This document shows positions 3,196 through 11,359 of a stretch of DNA of 64,000 nucleotides, in pieces. Within the stretch, counting starts at the first letter, position 1. Every line of letters starts with the position of its first letter. This DNA comes from Stutzerimonas stutzeri (GTDB lineage: Bacteria; Pseudomonadota; Gammaproteobacteria; Pseudomonadales; Pseudomonadaceae). Below the pieces are notes generated by a model. That model saw only the letters and a program-made list of their open reading frames with translations. It had not been told where the DNA came from and searched no databases. The position numbers and the translations under genes were made by a program. The stretch spans positions 1-64,000 of the forward strand of contig NZ_JAMOII010000014.1 of the NCBI RefSeq assembly GCF_024448985.1. Reading direction: 5' to 3'.

Positions 3196-4059
3196 CTAGA
3201 ACCCGGCGAACTGCAAATAACTGGACGTGATCTGGTCACCCCAAAGCAGGGCGACCCAGCCAGCGATCGCCAGATAGGGCCCAAAAGGAATGGCCGTGCC
3301 GCTATCGGCCCTCTGCACACGCAGCATGATCGTGCCCAGCACGGCCCCGACAACCGACGACAGCAGAATGGTCAACGGCAAAACCTGCCACCCACCCCAG
3401 GCGCCGAGCATCGCTAGCAACTTGAAGTCGCCATAGCCCATGCCCTCCTTGCCGGTCACCAGCTTGAACAACCAGTACACGGACCAGAGGCTCAGATAGC
3501 CAGCAACCGCACCCCATACCGCATCAGGCAGCGTAGTGAACAAGCCGAACAGATTGACGAGCAATCCCAGCCACAGCAGTGGCAACACGATGGAGTCTGG
3601 CAGCAGCTGGTGATCGACATCGATCATGCTCATCGCCAGCAGCCCCCAGGTCAGCAGCAACATCGCTCCAGCCTGCCAGGTGAAGCCGAAATGCCAGGCG
3701 ACGTAGGCGGATAGCAGCCCGCACGCCAGCTCAACCAACGGGTAGCGCTTGCTGATCGGCGCCTTGCATGACGAACACTTGCCACGCAGCGCTAGCCAAC
3801 TCACCAATGGGATGTTCTCCCATGGCCGAATTTCGTGATCGCAATGCGGGCAATGGGAATGAGGGAGAACCAGATTGAACGTCGTGGCAGGCTCGCCAGG
3901 CAACTCGAGAAACTCACGAGCCTGAGCGCGCCAATCGCGCTGCATCATGATGGGTAGGCGGTGGATCACAACGTTGAGGAAACTGCCGACCAGCAGTCCC
4001 AACACAAACACGCAGAAAACAAAGGCCAGCGTGTTGCTGGCCAGAATTTGCACAATCAT
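3196..4059 (-). CDS. pilD: Type IV prepilin peptidase / N-methyltransferase PilD
   Basis: An inner-membrane aspartic protease of 287 residues that removes the short leader of type IV prepilins and pseudopilins and methylates the new N-terminal Phe. The cytoplasmic N-terminal zinc site is complete (Cys70-x2-Cys73, Cys95-x2-Cys98). The two catalytic aspartates are visible as Asp147/Asp149 in the MIDVDHQLLPD segment and Asp211 in the GYGDFK motif. About eight membrane segments follow the first one at residues 10-30. It sits 3 bases downstream of pilC in a pilB-pilC-pilD operon, so it would process the unusual short pilin encoded divergently at 7513. Confidence 0.97.
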   Translation of the reverse strand: MIVQILASNTLAFVFCVFVLGLLVGSFLNVVIHRLPIMMQRDWRAQAREFLELPGEPATTFNLVLPHSHCPHCDHEIRPWENIPLVSWLALRGKCSSCKAPISKRYPLVELACGLLSAYVAWHFGFTWQAGAMLLLTWGLLAMSMIDVDHQLLPDSIVLPLLWLGLLVNLFGLFTTLPDAVWGAVAGYLSLWSVYWLFKLVTGKEGMGYGDFKLLAMLGAWGGWQVLPLTILLSSVVGAVLGTIMLRVQRADSGTAIPFGPYLAIAGWVALLWGDQITSSYLQFAGF

Positions 4060-4062
4060 TCT

Positions 4063-5286
4063 TTAGCCGACCACGCTGCCCAGCTGGAAGATAGGCAGAT
4101 ACATCGCAATGATCAGGCCACCCACCAGCACGCCCAACACCGCCATGATCAGCGGCTCCATCAAGGTCGTAAGATTGTCGACCATGTTGTCCACCTCATC
4201 TTCATAGAAGCTGGCAACCTTATCGAGCATCTCATCCAGAGAACCCGATTCCTCACCAATTGCGGTCATCTGAATCGCCATTGAAGGGAAGACACCGGTA
4301 GTCCGCATGGAGAAGTTCAGCTGCACCCCGGACGAGACATCGTTGCGAATTTTGGCAACAGCATTGCGGAACACCACGTTACCGGTAGCACCCGCCACCG
4401 AATCCAGCGCATCAACCAGCGGCACGCCTGCAGCGAAGGTCGTCGACAGCGTCCGCGCATAACGCGCCACTACGGCTTTGTACAAGATGTCGCCGACGAT
4501 GGGCGTTTTCAGGAGCCCACGATCCAGCGCATCGCGGACTTTTTCCGAACGCTTGTAGCTATGCTTGAACAGGAGGGCGGCCGCAAACAAGCCGATCACA
4601 ACCAGATACCACCATTCCTGCAACCAACGCGAAAGCCCGACCACCATCTGTGTAAAGGCAGGCAACTCCGCACCAAACCCCTGGAACACGCTTTCAAATT
4701 GCGGCACTACCTTGATCAACAGAATTGCAGAAACGATGATCGCCACCACGATGACGGCAATTGGATAGGTCATTGCCTTCTTGATCTTTGCCTTTAGCTG
4801 CTCGGTCTTTTCCTTATAGGTCGCGACCCTGTCCAGCAAGGTTTCCAGCGCACCAGACTGCTCGCCGGATTCCACCAAGTTGCAATAAAGGTCATCGAAA
4901 TATTGCGGCTTTTTGCGCAGCGAACCGGCAAAACTGTTACCGGCGGCCACCTCCTGCTTCACCTCATCGACCAGCTTGCGCATGTTCGGATTGTCGAAGC
5001 CCTCACCGATGATGTCGAACGACTGCAACAACGGCACACCGGCCTTCATCATAGTCGCCATCTGCCGGGTGAACAGCGCGATGTCCATCGGCTTGATCTT
5101 CTTGCCCGCACTGAATAGCGAAACCGCCTTTTTACGCACCTTAAGCGGATTGATGCCCTGCTTGCGCAGTTGCGCCTTGATCAGCGCCGGGCTCTGGCCG
5201 GACAGCTCACCCTTGATCTTGCTGCCCTTGCGGTCAGTGCCTTCCCAGGTGAACACACTGGTTTTCAACGCTTTCTGCTGCGCCAT
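4063..5286 (-). CDS. pilC: Type IV pilus inner-membrane platform protein PilC
   Basis: The platform protein of the type IV pilus motor, 407 residues, belonging to the GspF/PilC family. Two repeated cytoplasmic helical domains (about residues 65-190 and 270-395) are each followed by membrane segments (near 170-192, 220-240 and 375-400). It couples the PilB ATPase to pilin insertion at the base of the pilus. It begins 2 bases after the pilB stop, so the genes are co-transcribed. The sequence is full length with nothing unusual in it. Confidence 0.97.
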   Translation of the reverse strand: MAQQKALKTSVFTWEGTDRKGSKIKGELSGQSPALIKAQLRKQGINPLKVRKKAVSLFSAGKKIKPMDIALFTRQMATMMKAGVPLLQSFDIIGEGFDNPNMRKLVDEVKQEVAAGNSFAGSLRKKPQYFDDLYCNLVESGEQSGALETLLDRVATYKEKTEQLKAKIKKAMTYPIAVIVVAIIVSAILLIKVVPQFESVFQGFGAELPAFTQMVVGLSRWLQEWWYLVVIGLFAAALLFKHSYKRSEKVRDALDRGLLKTPIVGDILYKAVVARYARTLSTTFAAGVPLVDALDSVAGATGNVVFRNAVAKIRNDVSSGVQLNFSMRTTGVFPSMAIQMTAIGEESGSLDEMLDKVASFYEDEVDNMVDNLTTLMEPLIMAVLGVLVGGLIIAMYLPIFQLGSVVG

Positions 5287-5288
5287 GG

Positions 5289-6995
5289 CTAATCCTTGGT
5301 CACGCGGTTGACTTCCTCCAGGCTGGTGATGCCGTGCATGGCTTTGACCAGACCCGAAAGACGCAAATCATTGAAGCCATCTTTGCGCGCTTGAATGGCG
5401 ATATCGATGGAATTCCCTTCCTCCATGATAAGCCGCTGTAGAGCAGGCGTGATTTTAACCACTTCATAAATACCGACACGGCCCTTATAACCGCCGTTGC
5501 AATTGTCGCAGCCCACCGGGCCGTAAAGCTGGAAAGTACCGATTTTGTTTTCCGGGATGCCTTCCTTCAAAAGCGCTTCCCGGGGCACCTCCACTTCTTT
5601 CTTGCAGCTCGGGCAGAGCTTGCGCGCAAGGCGCTGGGCAATGATCAAGTTGACCGAGGTTGCAATGTTGAAGGCCGGCACCCCCATGTTGCGCAGACGG
5701 GTCAGGGTTTCGGCAGCACTGTTCGTATGCAGCGTCGACATCACCATATGGCCGGTCTGCGCCGCCTTGATCGCAATCTCGGCGGTTTCAAGGTCACGAA
5801 TCTCGCCGACCATGATGATGTCCGGATCCTGACGCAAAAACGCACGCAACGCCTGGGCGAAATCCATGCCCTGGCGCGGATTGACGTTGACCTGATTGAT
5901 GCCTTCGAGGTTGATCTCCACCGGATCTTCGGCAGTAGAAATATTCACATCGATGGTGTTGAGGATATTCAGACCGGTGTACAGCGAAACCGTCTTACCA
6001 GAGCCGGTCGGGCCGGTGACCAGGATCATCCCCTGCGGCTGCTTCAGTGCCGCCATATAAAGTGCTTTCTGGTCTTCCTCATAGCCCAGCGCATCGATAC
6101 CCATCTTCGCGCTAGACGAATCGAGGATACGCATCACGATCTTTTCGCCCCACAAGGTGGGCAGGCTGTTGACGCGGAAGTCGATGGACTTGGTCTTGGA
6201 GACCTTCATCTTAATCCGACCGTCCTGCGGCTTGCGCCGCTCGGCAATATCCAGCGCCGCCATGACCTTGAGGCGCGCGGAAATCCGACTGACCAACTGA
6301 ACCGGCGGCCGCGCCACTTCGTGCAAAACGCCATCGGTACGAAAGCGCACCCGATAGGATTTCTCATAGGGTTCGAAGTGCAGGTCCGATGAGCCGCGCT
6401 TGATCGCATCGAGCAGCATCTTGTTGACGAAGCGCACCACTGGCGCATCGTCGGCCTCATTGTGCTCGCCTTCCTCTTTCTCGGTGGCGCCGCCACCCAT
6501 CTCGATATCCAGATCATCCAGATCGGAATCGGTCAGCCCATCCAGGGCCGTGCTGGCAGACTCGAAGAGTTTTTCGATGGCCTCGCCAAGCTTGTCATCT
6601 TCAACCAGCACCGACTCGACCGACAGCCCGGTATTGAACTGGATATCGCTGATGGCTTGGTGATTGGTTGGATCGGAAACGGCGACATACAGCTTATTAC
6701 CGCGCCGCTGCAGCGGAAGCACACGATGCTGGCGTACCAGCTTTTCGCTAACCAGGTCTTTAGGCTGGGCTTCCTTGTCCAGCGCACTCAGGTCGAAATA
6801 CGGAACCCCAAACTGTTCCCCCGCGACATCGACTATCGCTCGGCTTTTTAACAATTTGTTCTGTACCAGCCAGGAAACCAGCGGCACCTGATTACGCTGG
6901 GCCTGTTGTTGCGCCTGTAGCGCAATTTTCTCATCAAGCTGGCCGACCAATACCAACTGGCGCGCCAGACCGCCGAGGGGAGCATTTTCGTTCAT
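5289..6995 (-). CDS. pilB: Type IV pilus extension ATPase PilB
   Basis: The cytoplasmic hexameric ATPase that drives pilus extension, 568 residues, full length. An N-terminal MshEN-type domain (about 1-150) precedes the GspE core. Walker A is GPTGSGKT at 328-335, the Walker B/Asp-box region is DIIMVGEIRD at about 392-401, and the His-box is GHMVMSTLHTN at about 415-425. The zinc-binding tetracysteine is Cys461-x2-Cys464 and Cys496-x2-Cys499. An acidic stretch at about 155-185 links the two domains. It is first in the pilBCD operon and divergent from the pilin gene across 517 bases. Confidence 0.97.
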   Translation of the reverse strand: MNENAPLGGLARQLVLVGQLDEKIALQAQQQAQRNQVPLVSWLVQNKLLKSRAIVDVAGEQFGVPYFDLSALDKEAQPKDLVSEKLVRQHRVLPLQRRGNKLYVAVSDPTNHQAISDIQFNTGLSVESVLVEDDKLGEAIEKLFESASTALDGLTDSDLDDLDIEMGGGATEKEEGEHNEADDAPVVRFVNKMLLDAIKRGSSDLHFEPYEKSYRVRFRTDGVLHEVARPPVQLVSRISARLKVMAALDIAERRKPQDGRIKMKVSKTKSIDFRVNSLPTLWGEKIVMRILDSSSAKMGIDALGYEEDQKALYMAALKQPQGMILVTGPTGSGKTVSLYTGLNILNTIDVNISTAEDPVEINLEGINQVNVNPRQGMDFAQALRAFLRQDPDIIMVGEIRDLETAEIAIKAAQTGHMVMSTLHTNSAAETLTRLRNMGVPAFNIATSVNLIIAQRLARKLCPSCKKEVEVPREALLKEGIPENKIGTFQLYGPVGCDNCNGGYKGRVGIYEVVKITPALQRLIMEEGNSIDIAIQARKDGFNDLRLSGLVKAMHGITSLEEVNRVTKD

Positions 6996-7164
6996 CTAAA
7001 GTGCCCATAAAGGCTGGATAAATATCGCGCCCTTATAACGCAGTTCCAACGGTGAGCCAAACGCGCAGAAACAGAGTGGCAATTTTTGTCACTTGGTGAC
7101 TGGAAGAGCCGCTTTAACGATCAGCGGTACCCATCACAGCCTAACCACCTTGCCCCTTTCTCAT

Positions 7165-7190
7165 CGTGGGAGGCGCTCCCTCGCGGCGAA
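7165..7190. repeat. REP copy, GC-rich type
   Basis: The segment starts TCGTGGGAGGCGCTCCCTCG and matches, in inverse orientation, the REP motif at 2902 and 11096. A worn copy in the same orientation lies at 7314-7337. It sits in the spacer upstream of the pilin gene, outside the predicted sigma-54 promoter. Confidence 0.65.
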
Positions 7191-7449
7191 TAACCCAGCC
7201 ACGCACCGTTATAGAAACAAAGCCAGTTCACCGAGGCTGATTAACCGGCACAACATCCGTCTTCAAAGTCCCTACAACCCAAGCTTGGCGAGGGCTTCAA
7301 GCACAACCGGTTTTTTGGAAGGCACGCCCCGCCGCTAAAGCTCGCACTCAAAGCCCCTACTCCTGTCCCAAACACCGCCCCGGAACAACCGCAGGGAAAC
7401 GCGACCCAGCGCACAGCCCCATCTTTCCATCCGATCACCCAGCCTCGCC

Positions 7450-7465
7450 TGGCACAGAAGCTGCT
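7450..7465 (+). promoter_or_regulatory. Sigma-54 (-24/-12) promoter of the pilin gene
   Basis: TGGCAC at 7450-7455 and CTGCT at 7461-7465 match the -24 and -12 elements. The invariant GG (7451-7452) and GC (7463-7464) are separated by exactly 10 bases. Transcription would start near 7476, about 37 bases before the pilin ATG. Pseudomonas pilA genes are known to be sigma-54 dependent and activated by PilR, so the site supports this gene being the expressed major pilin. The activator site was not identified. Confidence 0.72.
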
Positions 7466-7512
7466 CCTACCATCAGCAGGTCCAACGACCTCACTAACAT
7501 AGGAGCTTTTCA

Positions 7513-7701
7513 ATGAAACTTCTTAAGAAGAAGCAAAAAGGTTTTACCCTGATCGAGCTGATGATCGTGATTGCAATTATTGGCATTCTGGCCGCCATCG
7601 CCATTCCGCAGTTCAACGATTACCGCGCCCGGGCTAACGATTCAGCAGCGAATGCTGACGTGAAAAACGCACAGACCGCCTACGCTTCGTCGATGAACTA
7701 A
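7513..7701 (+). CDS. pilA: Short type IV pilin consisting of the N-terminal helix only (PilA-N-like)
   Basis: A 62-residue prepilin. A 10-residue charged leader ([10 protein letters not shown]) is followed by the PilD site G|FTLIEL and the hydrophobic helix, giving a mature protein of 52 residues with Glu5 in place. Conventional Pseudomonas pilins are about 140-150 residues with a globular head; here the stop comes after the helix. Aromatic residues in the mature chain are Phe1, Phe24, Tyr27 and Tyr47. In length and composition it resembles Geobacter PilA-N. AGGAG at 7501-7505 is a strong ribosome-binding site. The next gene, 15 bases on, encodes a secreted protein that could supply the missing head. 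A frameshift is unlikely because that gene has its own signal peptide. Confidence 0.85.
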
Positions 7702-7716
7702 TTCGAGGTTAACGAG

Positions 7717-8190
7717 ATGATGATCAAGAAAAGTTTTGCCACTCTGACGGTAGTCGTTCTTGCAGCTACTTCGGGTATTACTTACGCCGCCGATAACACA
7801 GTAACTCGAATCAGCAGCGGCGTTTATGTAGAGAACACCGCAGCCGGCTGCTCGTTGCTGCGTGACCGCGTCACCGTCAACACCTCCACCGGTGTCACCA
7901 TGGTGTACAACTGTGTGACTGCTGCCTCCAAGGTGAACCTGGGTGCCTGCCATGCTTCGGGCAGCCAAAAGCCAACTACTGTTCGTTGCCAGAATGTCAG
8001 CGAAGAGGAAGGAGAAGTCGTCTATAACAATACGTCTTGCCAGGGGACTGACGAAGACGACACCTTTCAAATCAATGGGCGTCGCGCTTACGTTGCTTCC
8101 ACCACCGGTGGCTCTGTAGCCCAGGTTTCGCTGGAGGCGACAGAATGTTCTGAGGATTCGCTCGGTGCTTTGGCCACTGTAGCCAACTGA
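7717..8190 (+). CDS. Secreted six-cysteine protein, candidate pilin head partner (PilA-C-like)
   Basis: A 157-residue protein with a Sec signal peptide (MMIKKSFATLTVVVLAATSG, cleavage probably after the TYA near residue 24). The mature part is about 133 residues and contains six cysteines, enough for three disulfides, and many Thr, Ser, Val and Asn, as expected for a beta-rich extracellular domain. No known domain was recognised. It starts 15 bases after the short pilin, with GAGG at 7705-7708, and shares its promoter and terminator. By analogy with Geobacter, where a separate gene (PilA-C/Spc) gives the globular part of the pilin, I infer it binds the 52-residue helix. That role is not shown by any motif. 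Confidence 0.7.
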   Translation: MMIKKSFATLTVVVLAATSGITYAADNTVTRISSGVYVENTAAGCSLLRDRVTVNTSTGVTMVYNCVTAASKVNLGACHASGSQKPTTVRCQNVSEEEGEVVYNNTSCQGTDEDDTFQINGRRAYVASTTGGSVAQVSLEATECSEDSLGALATVAN

Positions 8191-8244
8191 GCCCTGTAGG
8201 GCAGGCGTAACCCCGCGGTTATCGACCGTTTGAGCGGCTCATAC

Positions 8245-8271
8245 AAAACCCCGCAACCATCGCGGGGTTTT
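8245..8271 (+). terminator. Rho-independent terminator after the pilin pair
   Basis: A perfect 10-bp stem (AAAACCCCGC at 8245-8254 with GCGGGGTTTT at 8262-8271), a 7-base loop and a following T-rich run. It closes the two-gene pilin unit 54 bases after the second stop and separates it from the ABC transporter operon. The A-tract on the other side means it could also work in reverse. Confidence 0.92.
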
Positions 8272-8448
8272 GTTTTCCCAGGTGATTGTCTACACGCAAT
8301 AAGCCGATAACCCCCTCACACGGAAATTGGCGTGCTTTAACCCACTCCAAAATCCTGTCGCATATTGCATCTAGCAGGCTGCCAGTTGGCCTTTCGGCGC
8401 GTTAAAATCGCTCCCAGTACCTTTAATCGTTATGGTCAGATAACCGCC

Positions 8449-9258
8449 ATGCTGCCTTCCTCCAACTTTTCAATCGGTCTGCGTCTGGCCTCGCGCGCGC
8501 GCTACGGCTGGCTGGCCAGCGGCTCGCTGCTGGTACTGACCCTCACGGTACTCATGGCTGCCCAGTTCAGCGGTCGCCAGCCCGCCACCGTGGCGCTGGA
8601 TATCGGCCTGTCGGTTATTCGCCTGCTATTACCTCTGGTACTGGTCCTAATGACCCAGGAGCTGCTGTCACGCGAGTTCGACCGCCGTTACTTTCTTAAT
8701 ACCCTTTCCTACCCTCACCCACGACATAACCTATTGCTGGGCCGTTTCGCGGCTGTTGCCTGCCTTACCATCGGTCTGCTGCTAGTGCTTGTCGCTGCGC
8801 TGGCGTTATTAGTCTGGTTTATTGCCCAAGGCTATTCGCCAGGCACGCCAGTAGCGCTGGACCATCACTATCTGATTACCATCGCCTTTATTGGCGTGGA
8901 TCTGCTGCTGCTCACTGTCGTAGCCTGCCTGCTGGCCGTGGTGGCCTCCACGCCCAGTTTCGTACTGATCGGCACCTTCGGCTTCATGCTGGTGGCGCGC
9001 TCGTTTGGCGCCATTGTCGAGCTACTGACCCGCAACACAGGAGTTGTGAGCGATGCCGATAGCTATCGCTCCGGAATCGGCCTGCTAGGCTATCTGCTGC
9101 CTGACCTCGGCGCGCTGGATGTGCGTATGATCGCCCTCTACGGAAAGATGGAACTGCTGCCCGCCGACTGGCCCTGGCTGCTGCTGTCGAACCTGACCTT
9201 TATGGTCGGCTTGCTGGCCCTTGCAGTCTGGGCTCTGCAGCGCAGGCGTTTCGCCTGA
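8449..9258 (+). CDS. ABC-2-type transporter permease, candidate PilI-like pilus accessory protein
   Basis: A 269-residue inner-membrane protein with six hydrophobic segments (about residues 22-42, 50-72, 98-128, 140-172, 178-200 and 240-262). The start at 8449 (MLPSSNFSIGLRL) is chosen because it lies just ahead of the first amphipathic stretch; 28 codons upstream are weakly coding. It heads an operon with the next two genes, with which it would form an ABC exporter. Myxococcus xanthus carries a comparable three-part ABC module, pilGHI, beside pilA that is required for pilus formation. By position this gene could be the PilI counterpart, but that is inference. Confidence 0.72.
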   Translation: MLPSSNFSIGLRLASRARYGWLASGSLLVLTLTVLMAAQFSGRQPATVALDIGLSVIRLLLPLVLVLMTQELLSREFDRRYFLNTLSYPHPRHNLLLGRFAAVACLTIGLLLVLVAALALLVWFIAQGYSPGTPVALDHHYLITIAFIGVDLLLLTVVACLLAVVASTPSFVLIGTFGFMLVARSFGAIVELLTRNTGVVSDADSYRSGIGLLGYLLPDLGALDVRMIALYGKMELLPADWPWLLLSNLTFMVGLLALAVWALQRRRFA

Positions 9259-9259
9259 T

Positions 9260-10090
9260 ATGCGCCCCGCTCTGCTTCTGGCCCTGGCGGGCTTCGCTCT
9301 GTTCGCCATCCTCGCAGCTTGGCGCGCCCAGCAGCCGGTGGTACTCACGCCACAACTGCTCACCGACCGCGTGGTAATCCCCGCCCCCCTGCTGGTCGCC
9401 CTGCACGGCGGTGACCGCTTCCTCGCTGCCGACCTGGAAACCATGCGGCTGGCGGCCACTGGTCTGGATGATCGCGGTGTGGATACCGGCTATCTGGTCC
9501 GCGCCCAACGCGAAGTCGCCCGCCTCAACGCCTGCCATGAAGACAACTACTATCTTGCCAACGGCCTGCTCACCTGGGGCGGCGCCGTCGAACAAGGCAA
9601 CGCGGTACTGCGCGCCGCCGTCGACTGCCGATTCTGGGATGAATTCCCGCCGTTCTTCTACGGCATAAATCTCTGGTTCCTCCAGCGCAAAAACGAGGAA
9701 GCCGCCCGCGTATTGGAAATGGCCGCGCAGCGTTCGACGGATAACACCGCCGTCATGCAAAGGATGGCGGTGATGCTGCGTACCGAACTGTTCGCCAATG
9801 ACCAACTGGCGCTTAACTATTTGAGTCACCAACGCGACAGCAGCACCGACCCTAGGCTCAAGGAGCTGCTCAACCTGCGCGTCATTCGCCTGCAGGGCCT
9901 GATCCAATTGCGCGAAGCGCAGCGCCAGTACGAAGGCGAACATGGGCCGCTGACGGACCTCCAGCTGTTAGTCGATCGAGGCATCCTCAATGAATTGCCA
10001 GCCGACCCGCTGCGCCTTGGTTATGAGTTGCGTGACGGATACATCGAACTAAGAAAACTGAAGATCGCCGGACTGGAGGAACAGCCTTGA
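9260..10090 (+). CDS. Membrane-anchored periplasmic helical-repeat protein of the ABC operon (PilG-like position)
   Basis: A 276-residue protein with an N-terminal anchor (MRPALLLALAGFALFAILAA) and a long periplasmic part. The middle (about residues 90-210) looks like tetratricopeptide-type helical repeats (YYLANGLLTWG, FFYGINLWFLQRKN, RSTDNTAVMQRMAVM). The end carries a segment, LVDRGILNELPADPL, of a kind seen in pseudopilin-like and pilus accessory proteins. The start at 9260 lies 1 base after the permease stop. I do not recognise a named family. Its place between a permease and an ATPase is that of an ABC accessory protein, such as PilG in Myxococcus. Confidence 0.65.
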   Translation: MRPALLLALAGFALFAILAAWRAQQPVVLTPQLLTDRVVIPAPLLVALHGGDRFLAADLETMRLAATGLDDRGVDTGYLVRAQREVARLNACHEDNYYLANGLLTWGGAVEQGNAVLRAAVDCRFWDEFPPFFYGINLWFLQRKNEEAARVLEMAAQRSTDNTAVMQRMAVMLRTELFANDQLALNYLSHQRDSSTDPRLKELLNLRVIRLQGLIQLREAQRQYEGEHGPLTDLQLLVDRGILNELPADPLRLGYELRDGYIELRKLKIAGLEEQP

Positions 10091-10983
10091 GCGCAGCCGT
10101 GGAATTCAAGGGTGTCAGCTATACCTACAAAGCCAAGGGCAAGCAGGTCCAGGCTGTGCGTGATGTCAGCTTCAGCCTGGCCGAAGGGGAGGTGTTCGGC
10201 TTCGTCGGCCCCAACGGCGCGGGCAAGTCCACCACCATCAAGATCATGCTGGACATCATCAATGACTATCAGGGCAAGGTGACGCTATACGGCACCGATG
10301 CACGCCAGGCCGAAGCCCGCCGGGGTATGGCCTATGTGCCGGAAGCGCCGGCTCTATACGACCAATTCACGCCGCTGGAAATCCTGCGCATGGGCATGTC
10401 CATGTACGGCATCAAACGCACCGATGCCGACACATGGTGCATGCAGTGGCTAGAACGTTTTTCCGTAGACGGCACCGGCAAGCGCCGTATGCGTGAGCTG
10501 TCCAAGGGAACCGCGCAGCGGGTCGCGTTGGCCCATGCGATGGCAGTCGAGCCGAAGCTGCTGATCCTCGACGAACCGCTCTCGGGCCTGGACCCGGTAG
10601 GCCGTAAGGACGTGGTCGATATCCTCAACGACTACAAGAAACAAGGCGGCGCGATTTTCTTCACCTCGCATGTGCTGCATGACGTTGAGCGTATCGCCGA
10701 CCGCTTCGGTTTCATCAACAAGGGGCAACTGGTGACCGTCCGGTCGCCGCGCGAATTGGCCGCCGAGCGTGCCGACTGCTTTATCCTGCGCTACCAGGCG
10801 GACCAACCCCTGGGGCATAACTGTGTCGCGCTGCGACCCGGCGAGTTCGAATGCGAGCTATCACAAGCCGAGCTACCCGCCGCCATCGCTCAACTCGGAA
10901 ACAATGGCGGCCATCTGCTGACCATTAAACCGGCCGTATCTCTGGAAACGGTATTCTTCCGCATCCTCGCCGACGCCTCTTAA
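10087..10983 (+). CDS. ABC transporter ATP-binding protein, candidate PilH-like
   Basis: A 298-residue ATPase of the CcmA/ABC-2 exporter type. Walker A is GPNGAGKST at about residues 40-48, the signature is LSKGTAQRVALAHAM near 138-152 (LSKGT replaces the usual LSGGQ), Walker B is LLILDEPLSGLDP near 157-169, and the switch His is in FFTSHVLHD near 193-201. The start is TTG at 10087, overlapping the previous stop as TTGA, with a GGAGG ribosome-binding site at 10075-10079. A C-terminal extension of about 90 residues follows the core. With the two preceding genes it forms one transporter. The substrate is unknown; proximity to the pilin suggests a role in pilus assembly or modification. Confidence 0.88.
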   Translation: MSAAVEFKGVSYTYKAKGKQVQAVRDVSFSLAEGEVFGFVGPNGAGKSTTIKIMLDIINDYQGKVTLYGTDARQAEARRGMAYVPEAPALYDQFTPLEILRMGMSMYGIKRTDADTWCMQWLERFSVDGTGKRRMRELSKGTAQRVALAHAMAVEPKLLILDEPLSGLDPVGRKDVVDILNDYKKQGGAIFFTSHVLHDVERIADRFGFINKGQLVTVRSPRELAAERADCFILRYQADQPLGHNCVALRPGEFECELSQAELPAAIAQLGNNGGHLLTIKPAVSLETVFFRILADAS

Positions 10984-11359
10984 AGTCTAGGCTGCCCTAA
11001 CAAAAGGGCACGGTGTGGCTTTGGTGTCTGTGGAGAGCCGATCCGATGCGATGCGATGCGAACTTTGAGGCTTTGCTAGCAGGCTATCGCCTGCTTTCGC
11101 CGCGGGGGAGCGCCTCCCACAAAAAGAGGTGCGGTGCGGGGCTTTGCTTTTGCTGGAGGGTGACGGGGCGAAGCATGCTTACAAGCCAGCTATAGCCGGA
11201 TGTCGATACGCTCGTTAGCTGTACTGCGACCCATGCTTTACGCTGCGTCACGCTGCGCGTCGTACGGCATCGGCTGGCCTTAGAGCCGCCTGCGGGCTAG
11301 CATCGCCCCCTCTGTGCCTGCAGACATACCGCAGGCAACACTAATTTTCAGGAGGAACC
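10984..11359. other. Intergenic region between the ABC operon and ytoQ
   Basis: This is 376 bases without a gene. It holds a small hairpin TGCCCT-AACAAA-AGGGCA (10993-11010, no T-run), three tandem GATGC units (11045-11059), one REP copy (11096-11120), and the leader of ytoQ ending in CAGGAGG. A conventional pilA locus in P. aeruginosa and P. stutzeri ends at a tRNA-Thr gene; I looked for one here and did not see it. Confidence 0.55.
11096..11120. repeat. REP copy, GC-rich type
   Basis: TTCGCCGCGGGGGAGCGCCT followed by CCCAC is the clearest copy of the GC-rich REP motif in the window. It marks the distal side of the pilin/ABC cassette. No inverted partner was found within 100 bases. Confidence 0.7.

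Follow-up and report, generated by a model that had tools for sequence, protein, structure and literature searches.

The major pilin of this Stutzerimonas stutzeri genome is probably a two-chain subunit that works like PilA-N/PilA-C of Geobacter, a reading for which the sequence comparisons suggest a probability of about 0.7. The window (the whole stretch of DNA that was analysed, 64,000 nucleotides) represents contig C14 of genome G000, which is 4.23 Mb in size and 99.98% complete. At the pilA position two open reading frames of 62 and 157 amino acids (7513-7701 and 7717-8190) lie on the same strand, with 15 bases from the stop of the first to the start of the second. The genes, their coordinates and the gap are as given in an earlier note on this DNA, and its placing of the pair divergent from pilB, pilC and pilD agrees with the Pfam and NCBIfam matches of these three genes. 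The features of the locus are as follows.

3196..4059, minus strand: pilD, prepilin peptidase (Pfam A24_N_bact and Peptidase_A24)
4063..5286, minus strand: pilC, pilus platform protein (Pfam T2SSF)
5289..6995, minus strand: pilB, assembly ATPase (NCBIfam TIGR02538, 860 bits, cut-off 675.65)
7450..7465, plus strand: sigma-54-like promoter element TGGCAC-N5-CTGCT (from the sequence)
7513..7701, plus strand: short pilin, PilA-N-like, with a leader of 10 and a mature part of 52 amino acids (PF07963, PDB matches, alignment)
7717..8190, plus strand: putative secreted six-cysteine partner, PilA-C-like (signal peptide at about 7717-7788, by eye)
8243..8276, plus strand: likely terminator after the pair, a 12-bp hairpin with a T-rich 3' arm (-20.4 kcal/mol)

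The pair was said to have its own sigma-54 promoter and a terminator, and candidates for both are present. The sigma-54-like element has counterparts 62-67 nt before the start in 21 of the 27 other split loci and upstream of the gene in 41 of 50 full-length loci, both being raw counts without a control for chance. The hairpin at 8243-8273 is a strong one and a likely terminator; it was absent from the output of a simple terminator scan.

The first gene encodes only the N-terminal helix. Its product stops at mature residue 52, so the conventional type IVa layout, with helix and globular head in one chain, is not found in it. N_methyl (PF07963, 47.9 bits) was the sole Pfam family above cut-off, and the top three PDB matches were all geopilin domain 1 chains (4.4e-18 to 1.5e-15). 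The best NCBIfam match, typeIV_PilA_Myxo, reached 61.4 bits against a cut-off of 400; a 150-amino-acid pilin of the same genome scores 59.9 on this model, much like the short pilin, and the match is therefore uninformative on descent. The mature length is 52 residues in all 28 aligned split pilins, the window included, in agreement with the helix-only pilin of 52 residues described before.

A sequencing error creating the stop at 7699-7701, named in the earlier note as a possible refutation, was rejected because all 28 pilins end at mature residue 52 and the partner is present in all 27 other loci. It is also extremely improbable that the locus is a decayed pilA with a broken frame, neither product of which works in pili. 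Decay would suit the window and 10 of the 26 other loci with a computed gap, where the two frames are in register, but in the remaining 16 they are not, a pattern that a point stop does not explain. The constant mature length, the signal sites kept in most partners and the pair kept in 27 of 27 loci also argue against decay, which is refuted as far as sequence can do so.

In seven of 32 loci a script detected another short pilin, with 52-53 mature residues, 3' of the partner (L034, 6533-6712; L036, 7409-7591; L038, 6994-7176; L146, L147, L150 and L151). Four further loci with such a gene (L032, L033, L035 and L041) were identified by tblastn or by reading of open reading frames. The script found none in the window.

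The second gene encodes a protein with cysteines at positions 45, 66, 78, 91, 108 and 144. Its N-terminus has a hydrophobic stretch and an A-x-A site, recognized by eye and kept in most relatives, so that the separate signal and six cysteines attributed to this protein are both recovered, the former as a predicted signal peptide. All 27 other split loci have the partner gene 3' of the short pilin; 17 of these loci were found via the partner and 10 without it. The latter constitute an unbiased test of the pair, and all ten have the partner. Partners in L136 and L162 were read from ORF lists. The partner is also present in seven of seven named loci, three of these records being repeats of loci among the 27. 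The pair thus recurs in relatives, and its absence from related strains, raised in the earlier note as an objection, was not observed.

The 25 aligned partners of the six-cysteine type have a mean column identity of 36%, compared with 78% among the split pilins; a conserved helix with a variable partner is what is expected of pilus core and surface. The cysteines 45, 66, 78 and 144 are invariant in this alignment. A two-cysteine version of the partner is found in three Stutzerimonas genomes (G227, G231 and G189), and more distant Gammaproteobacteria have shorter partners with 2-3 cysteines. Six partners of the short type and the six-cysteine family have a common core motif (hhalign E 6.9e-06, probability 84.5%, 42 columns). 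In one Stutzerimonas genome (G015, locus L042) tandem partner copies, 5920-6393 and 6463-6900, follow a single short pilin.

The partner appears from its sequence context to occupy the place of PilA-C, and a shared descent with PilA-C is plausible. Pfam gave nothing at cut-off for the partner, and nothing usable was obtained in the NCBIfam and single-sequence PDB searches. A partner profile including the signal peptides had a single PDB hit at E<=10, the Geopilin domain 2 protein 9egp_B (0.0019). With the signal peptide removed the profile had no PDB hit at E<=10, and the hit at 0.0019 is therefore partly caused by the signal peptides. An hhalign comparison of the partner with the mature part of 9egp_B gave E 0.038 with a probability of 1.4% over 35 columns. 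As a yardstick, most of 9egp_B was used as query and found the domain 2 chain of 7tgg only at 0.016, showing that weak similarity is usual in the geopilin domain 2 family. In the same search the unrelated designed protein 6ren scored 0.0028, above the true family member 7tgg, and E-values of such size are thus unsafe here. The mature stretch of 9egp_B that was seen contains no cysteine. In the AlphaFold2 model (pLDDT 82.6) the partner consists of an all-beta domain and a C-terminal helix; Foldseek gave 0 matches for this model at E<=0.001 and no PilA-C or pilin in the best 50 of 75. A second model, of a two-cysteine partner, had a mean pLDDT of 47.5. The PDB profile search with the two-cysteine alignment gave only an unrelated hit (0.34), and comparison of this alignment with the 9egp_B stretch gave E 0.21.

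The PilA-N/PilA-C locus of Geobacter sulfurreducens (GSU1496/GSU1497; PDB 6vk9 and 7tgg) likewise encodes a short class III pilin without a head and has the partner gene directly downstream. A signal peptide of its own, deduced from a 124-residue entry as against a mature chain of 104 residues, is a further likeness of the Geobacter partner to that of Stutzerimonas. PMC11046646 describes the Geobacter subunit as a heterodimer of 61 and 104 residues, and according to a 2026 review the filament contains equal amounts of both chains and conducts poorly (PMC12954529). The mature helix is shorter in Stutzerimonas, 52 as opposed to 61 residues, and the partner is longer, with about 133 predicted mature residues and six cysteines as opposed to 104 residues. 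Unlike the Geobacter locus, the split locus of Stutzerimonas is found in a gammaproteobacterial host and is divergent from pilBCD. The likeness to the Geobacter arrangement proposed in the earlier note is therefore retained for the conserved pair and for the geopilin domain 1 relatives of the short chain, but is weak for the partner, whose homology to geopilin domain 2 was not confirmed without the signal peptide.

A full-length pilA elsewhere in the genome would have been a competing candidate for the major pilin. PF00114, the full-length pilin family, had no match across G000. The PF07963 search gave 11 pilin-like starts, consisting of the one in the window, five on contig C10 and five on contig C12. 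The five on C12 are part of a GspG/GspH block. Four of those on C10 belong to a block that also contains PilV (above the NCBIfam cut-off) and an open reading frame of 1479 amino acids, for which the label PilY1-like is our own reading. The fifth, the 150-amino-acid pilin with a mature length of 144, is located on the opposite side of the PilY1-like frame; none of the models matches it by name, and its position suggests that it is the minor pilin PilE. G000 has nothing else of this kind at a pilA locus besides the split pair.

Counted in favour of a two-chain major pilin are the geopilin domain 1 matches, the conservation of the pair, the lack of a PF00114 match, the fixed length of 52 residues, the core motif of the partners and a correlation of distances. 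The last was obtained for 26 loci, in which distances among short pilins and among partners correlate beyond the control given by the ABC-ATPase (partial r 0.61, reached in 0 of 2000 permutations, which ignore relatedness). Counted against it are the 150-amino-acid pilin, the loss of the 9egp_B hit without the signal peptide, the 6ren hit and the lack of a Foldseek match. If the major pilin is of this kind, the 52-residue chain would be processed by PilD and polymerised by PilB and PilC to form the core of the filament. The partner would be exported by Sec and acquire disulfides in the periplasm as it folds to a small beta domain, which would then bind the exposed outer half of the helix and serve as a surface head, as PilA-C does in Geobacter.

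Two other roles of the partner would leave the filament headless. It is rather unlikely that the short pilin forms a bare filament and that the partner acts on it in the periplasm as a chaperone or stabiliser, leaving before or after assembly. Such a periplasmic role would agree with the signal peptide and the conserved cysteines, and work cited in PMC5174107 calls the Geobacter partner essential for the stabilisation of PilA, but the partner is far more variable than the helix, which is unusual for the chaperone of a near-invariant client, and the filament of Geobacter is described as containing the analogous chain in equal amount (PMC12954529). A role as a low-abundance tip or adhesin component has a clearly smaller probability. 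The high variability, cysteine content and secretion of the partner fit such a role, as do the tandem copies in G015; against it, the partner gene of the window follows the major-pilin gene after 15 bases, in which no promoter-like site was found, and the genome already has a minor-pilin block of the PilV/PilY1 type.

The sequences give little support to conduction by the two-chain subunit proposed here. The earlier note had pointed to aromatic residues at mature positions 1, 24, 27 and 47, and these are present (F1, F24, Y27 and Y47). The definition of an e-pilin involves extra aromatics along the helix beyond positions 1, 24 and 27. In 22 of the 28 split pilins these three are the only aromatics, and in the window Tyr47 is the only addition. 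Phenylalanine or tyrosine at positions 1, 24 and 27 was also seen by eye in the full-length pilins of the genus, and these positions are therefore generic and no Geobacter signature. Position 47 is not conserved, being tyrosine in the window only and phenylalanine in two of 28. Position 32 is asparagine in 25 of 28, including the window, and tyrosine in three (G227, G231 and G189), a residue also found there in the geopilin alignment. A stack of aromatic helices forming an electrically conductive e-pilus could draw on these three tyrosines and on the resemblance of the short pilin to Geobacter PilA-N, but the generic aromatics, the asparagine at position 32 and the description of the two-chain pilus of Geobacter itself as poorly conductive (PMC12954529) make it highly improbable. 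The suggestion of a conductive short pilin is not supported.

The pilA locus was read in all 56 Stutzerimonas genomes. The split form was found in 20, the window included, and only full-length pilA, with mature lengths of 126-170 residues, in the other 36. PF00114 had matches in 36 of the 56 genomes. Of the full-length genomes 35 of 36 matched, the exception (G031) having a full-length pilA by reading; of the split genomes 19 of 20 had no match, the exception being the fragmented G249 (73% completeness, 510 contigs), which has both split and full-length pilA. The conventional PF00114 pilins of Stutzerimonas and Pseudomonas share with the split form the locus divergent from pilBCD, the type of sigma-54-like element and the N-terminal helix. 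They differ in being one chain, of 124-185 mature residues in 50 full-length loci, rather than two. A second full-length pilin at or near pilA was observed in five full-length Stutzerimonas: L096 (G172), L123 (G148), L095 (G204), L104 (G103) and L119 (G072).

Outside the genus 21 further Pseudomonadaceae loci were read. Six of these were found via the partner and are split by selection, while two of the 15 chosen without knowledge of the partner are split (G197 and G163). The pair was also found beyond Pseudomonadaceae, in G421, belonging to another family, and in one Chromatiales MAG. The partner search result of 18 of 298 is an undercount, as within the genus it reached 11 of the 19 other split genomes. 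A contig-wide scan with the single partner sequence gave 28 pattern matches and no relative, while scanning with six closer relatives yielded 8 loci. Profile A1 had four hits in 369 genomes of the class. Two candidates were rejected: L152 (Muribaculaceae, E 1e-4), one of the 8 loci, which had no pilin on the strand read and was treated as chance, and G655 (E 7.5e-4, 42 columns within a frame of 347 amino acids), one of the four profile hits, for which 3.1 kb of the plus strand contained no pilin.

A three-gene ABC-transporter module is located behind the pair in the window.

8449..9258, plus strand: ABC-2-type permease (PF12679, 27.8 bits, cut-off 27.2)
9221..10090, plus strand: protein of 289 amino acids with no Pfam or NCBIfam match, which marks split-pilin loci
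10087..10983, plus strand: ABC transporter ATPase (PF00005, 102.2 bits)

At least one of the three was found with tblastn in 26 of the 27 other split loci, the exception being G124, and none in the 50 full-length loci, of which L097, L106 and L124 are shorter owing to contig ends or the stretch taken. The E-value limit of tblastn was 1e-3 for 17 split loci, while the remaining 10 and the full-length loci were searched at 1e-5. Both the 289-residue protein and the ATPase occur in all seven named loci, three of these records being duplicates of loci among the 27. The linkage was also tested in reverse: a search for the 289-residue protein in 369 genomes of the class gave eight with a match. Six of the matches are outside Stutzerimonas. 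In five of these, the 11-12 kb fetched include a pilin with 51-52 mature residues, which in two cases lies 3 to 5 kb away from the 289-residue protein; the sixth, G629, is at a contig edge and no short pilin was found there. The forward and reverse searches agree, and the linkage of module and split pilins is thus two-way. The module is a likely dedicated partner of the split pilin and would probably assist either the head, in its export, folding or loading, or the assembly of such pili. In Myxococcus xanthus the ABC genes pilGHI are directly 3' of pilA. Such genes are described in pilus clusters of Myxococcus and Desulfuromonadales (PMC6060248), to which the split locus is similar in having an ABC transporter gene set.

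The comparison with G225 (L167) indicates where the locus departs from that of a close relative. G000 and G225 have 99% identical CysNC, encoded about 1 kb beyond the cassette, yet G225 has a full-length pilA with no ABC module at that locus. In steps of 500 bases, identity was 0.93-1.00 up to position 4000 and 0.70-0.83 over 4001-6866, comprising the 5' end of pilD, pilC and pilB. There was no DNA match over 6867-11272, and identity was 0.88-0.97 beyond 11272, with some stretches unaligned.

4001..11272, no strand: putative exchanged segment relative to G225 (L167), from the DNA identity comparison

A block of about 7 kb thus differs between close relatives, as exchange would leave, and the cassette seems to be exchangeable. 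The block would replace the ordinary one-gene pilA and be exchanged between species. Identity to the PilB of the window is 86-96% in 16 of the 19 remaining Stutzerimonas with a split pilin and 79-81% in those with full-length pilA, a pattern that fits cassette exchange. PilB is still different in G124 (58%) and G198 (64%), and the split contig of G249 has a part of PilB at 84%.

The expectation of a new pilin design in a pseudomonad was borne out in part. Short pilins in pseudomonads are already known, Pseudomonas being named among the taxa with truncated pilins in a 2016 paper that describes partner genes for Geobacter genomes (PMC5174107). The conserved pair, the ABC linkage and the cassette swap were not found in print: among the matches listed, as represented by titles and abstract starts, there was none on Stutzerimonas split pilins and none combining Stutzerimonas, pilin and truncated. 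Structures of two-chain pilins are known from Geobacter, in which their significance is entangled in the nanowire dispute. An exchangeable split pilin beside one-chain sister species would permit a direct test, outside this controversy, of what splitting does to assembly, twitching, DNA uptake and phage binding. More tentatively, and with the odds against it, the split loci could represent a distinct gammaproteobacterial class of pili, in which head and stem are made separately, the head is handled by a three-gene ABC system, heads diversify on a near-invariant stem of 52 residues and the block is traded for ordinary pilA, for example under pressure from pilus-binding phages.

The pilA/ABC cassette of the window is flanked by a 32-nt inverted repeat, 88% complementary, at 7159-7190 and 11096-11127. 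This repeat may be a REP-like element or a mark of the edges of exchange.
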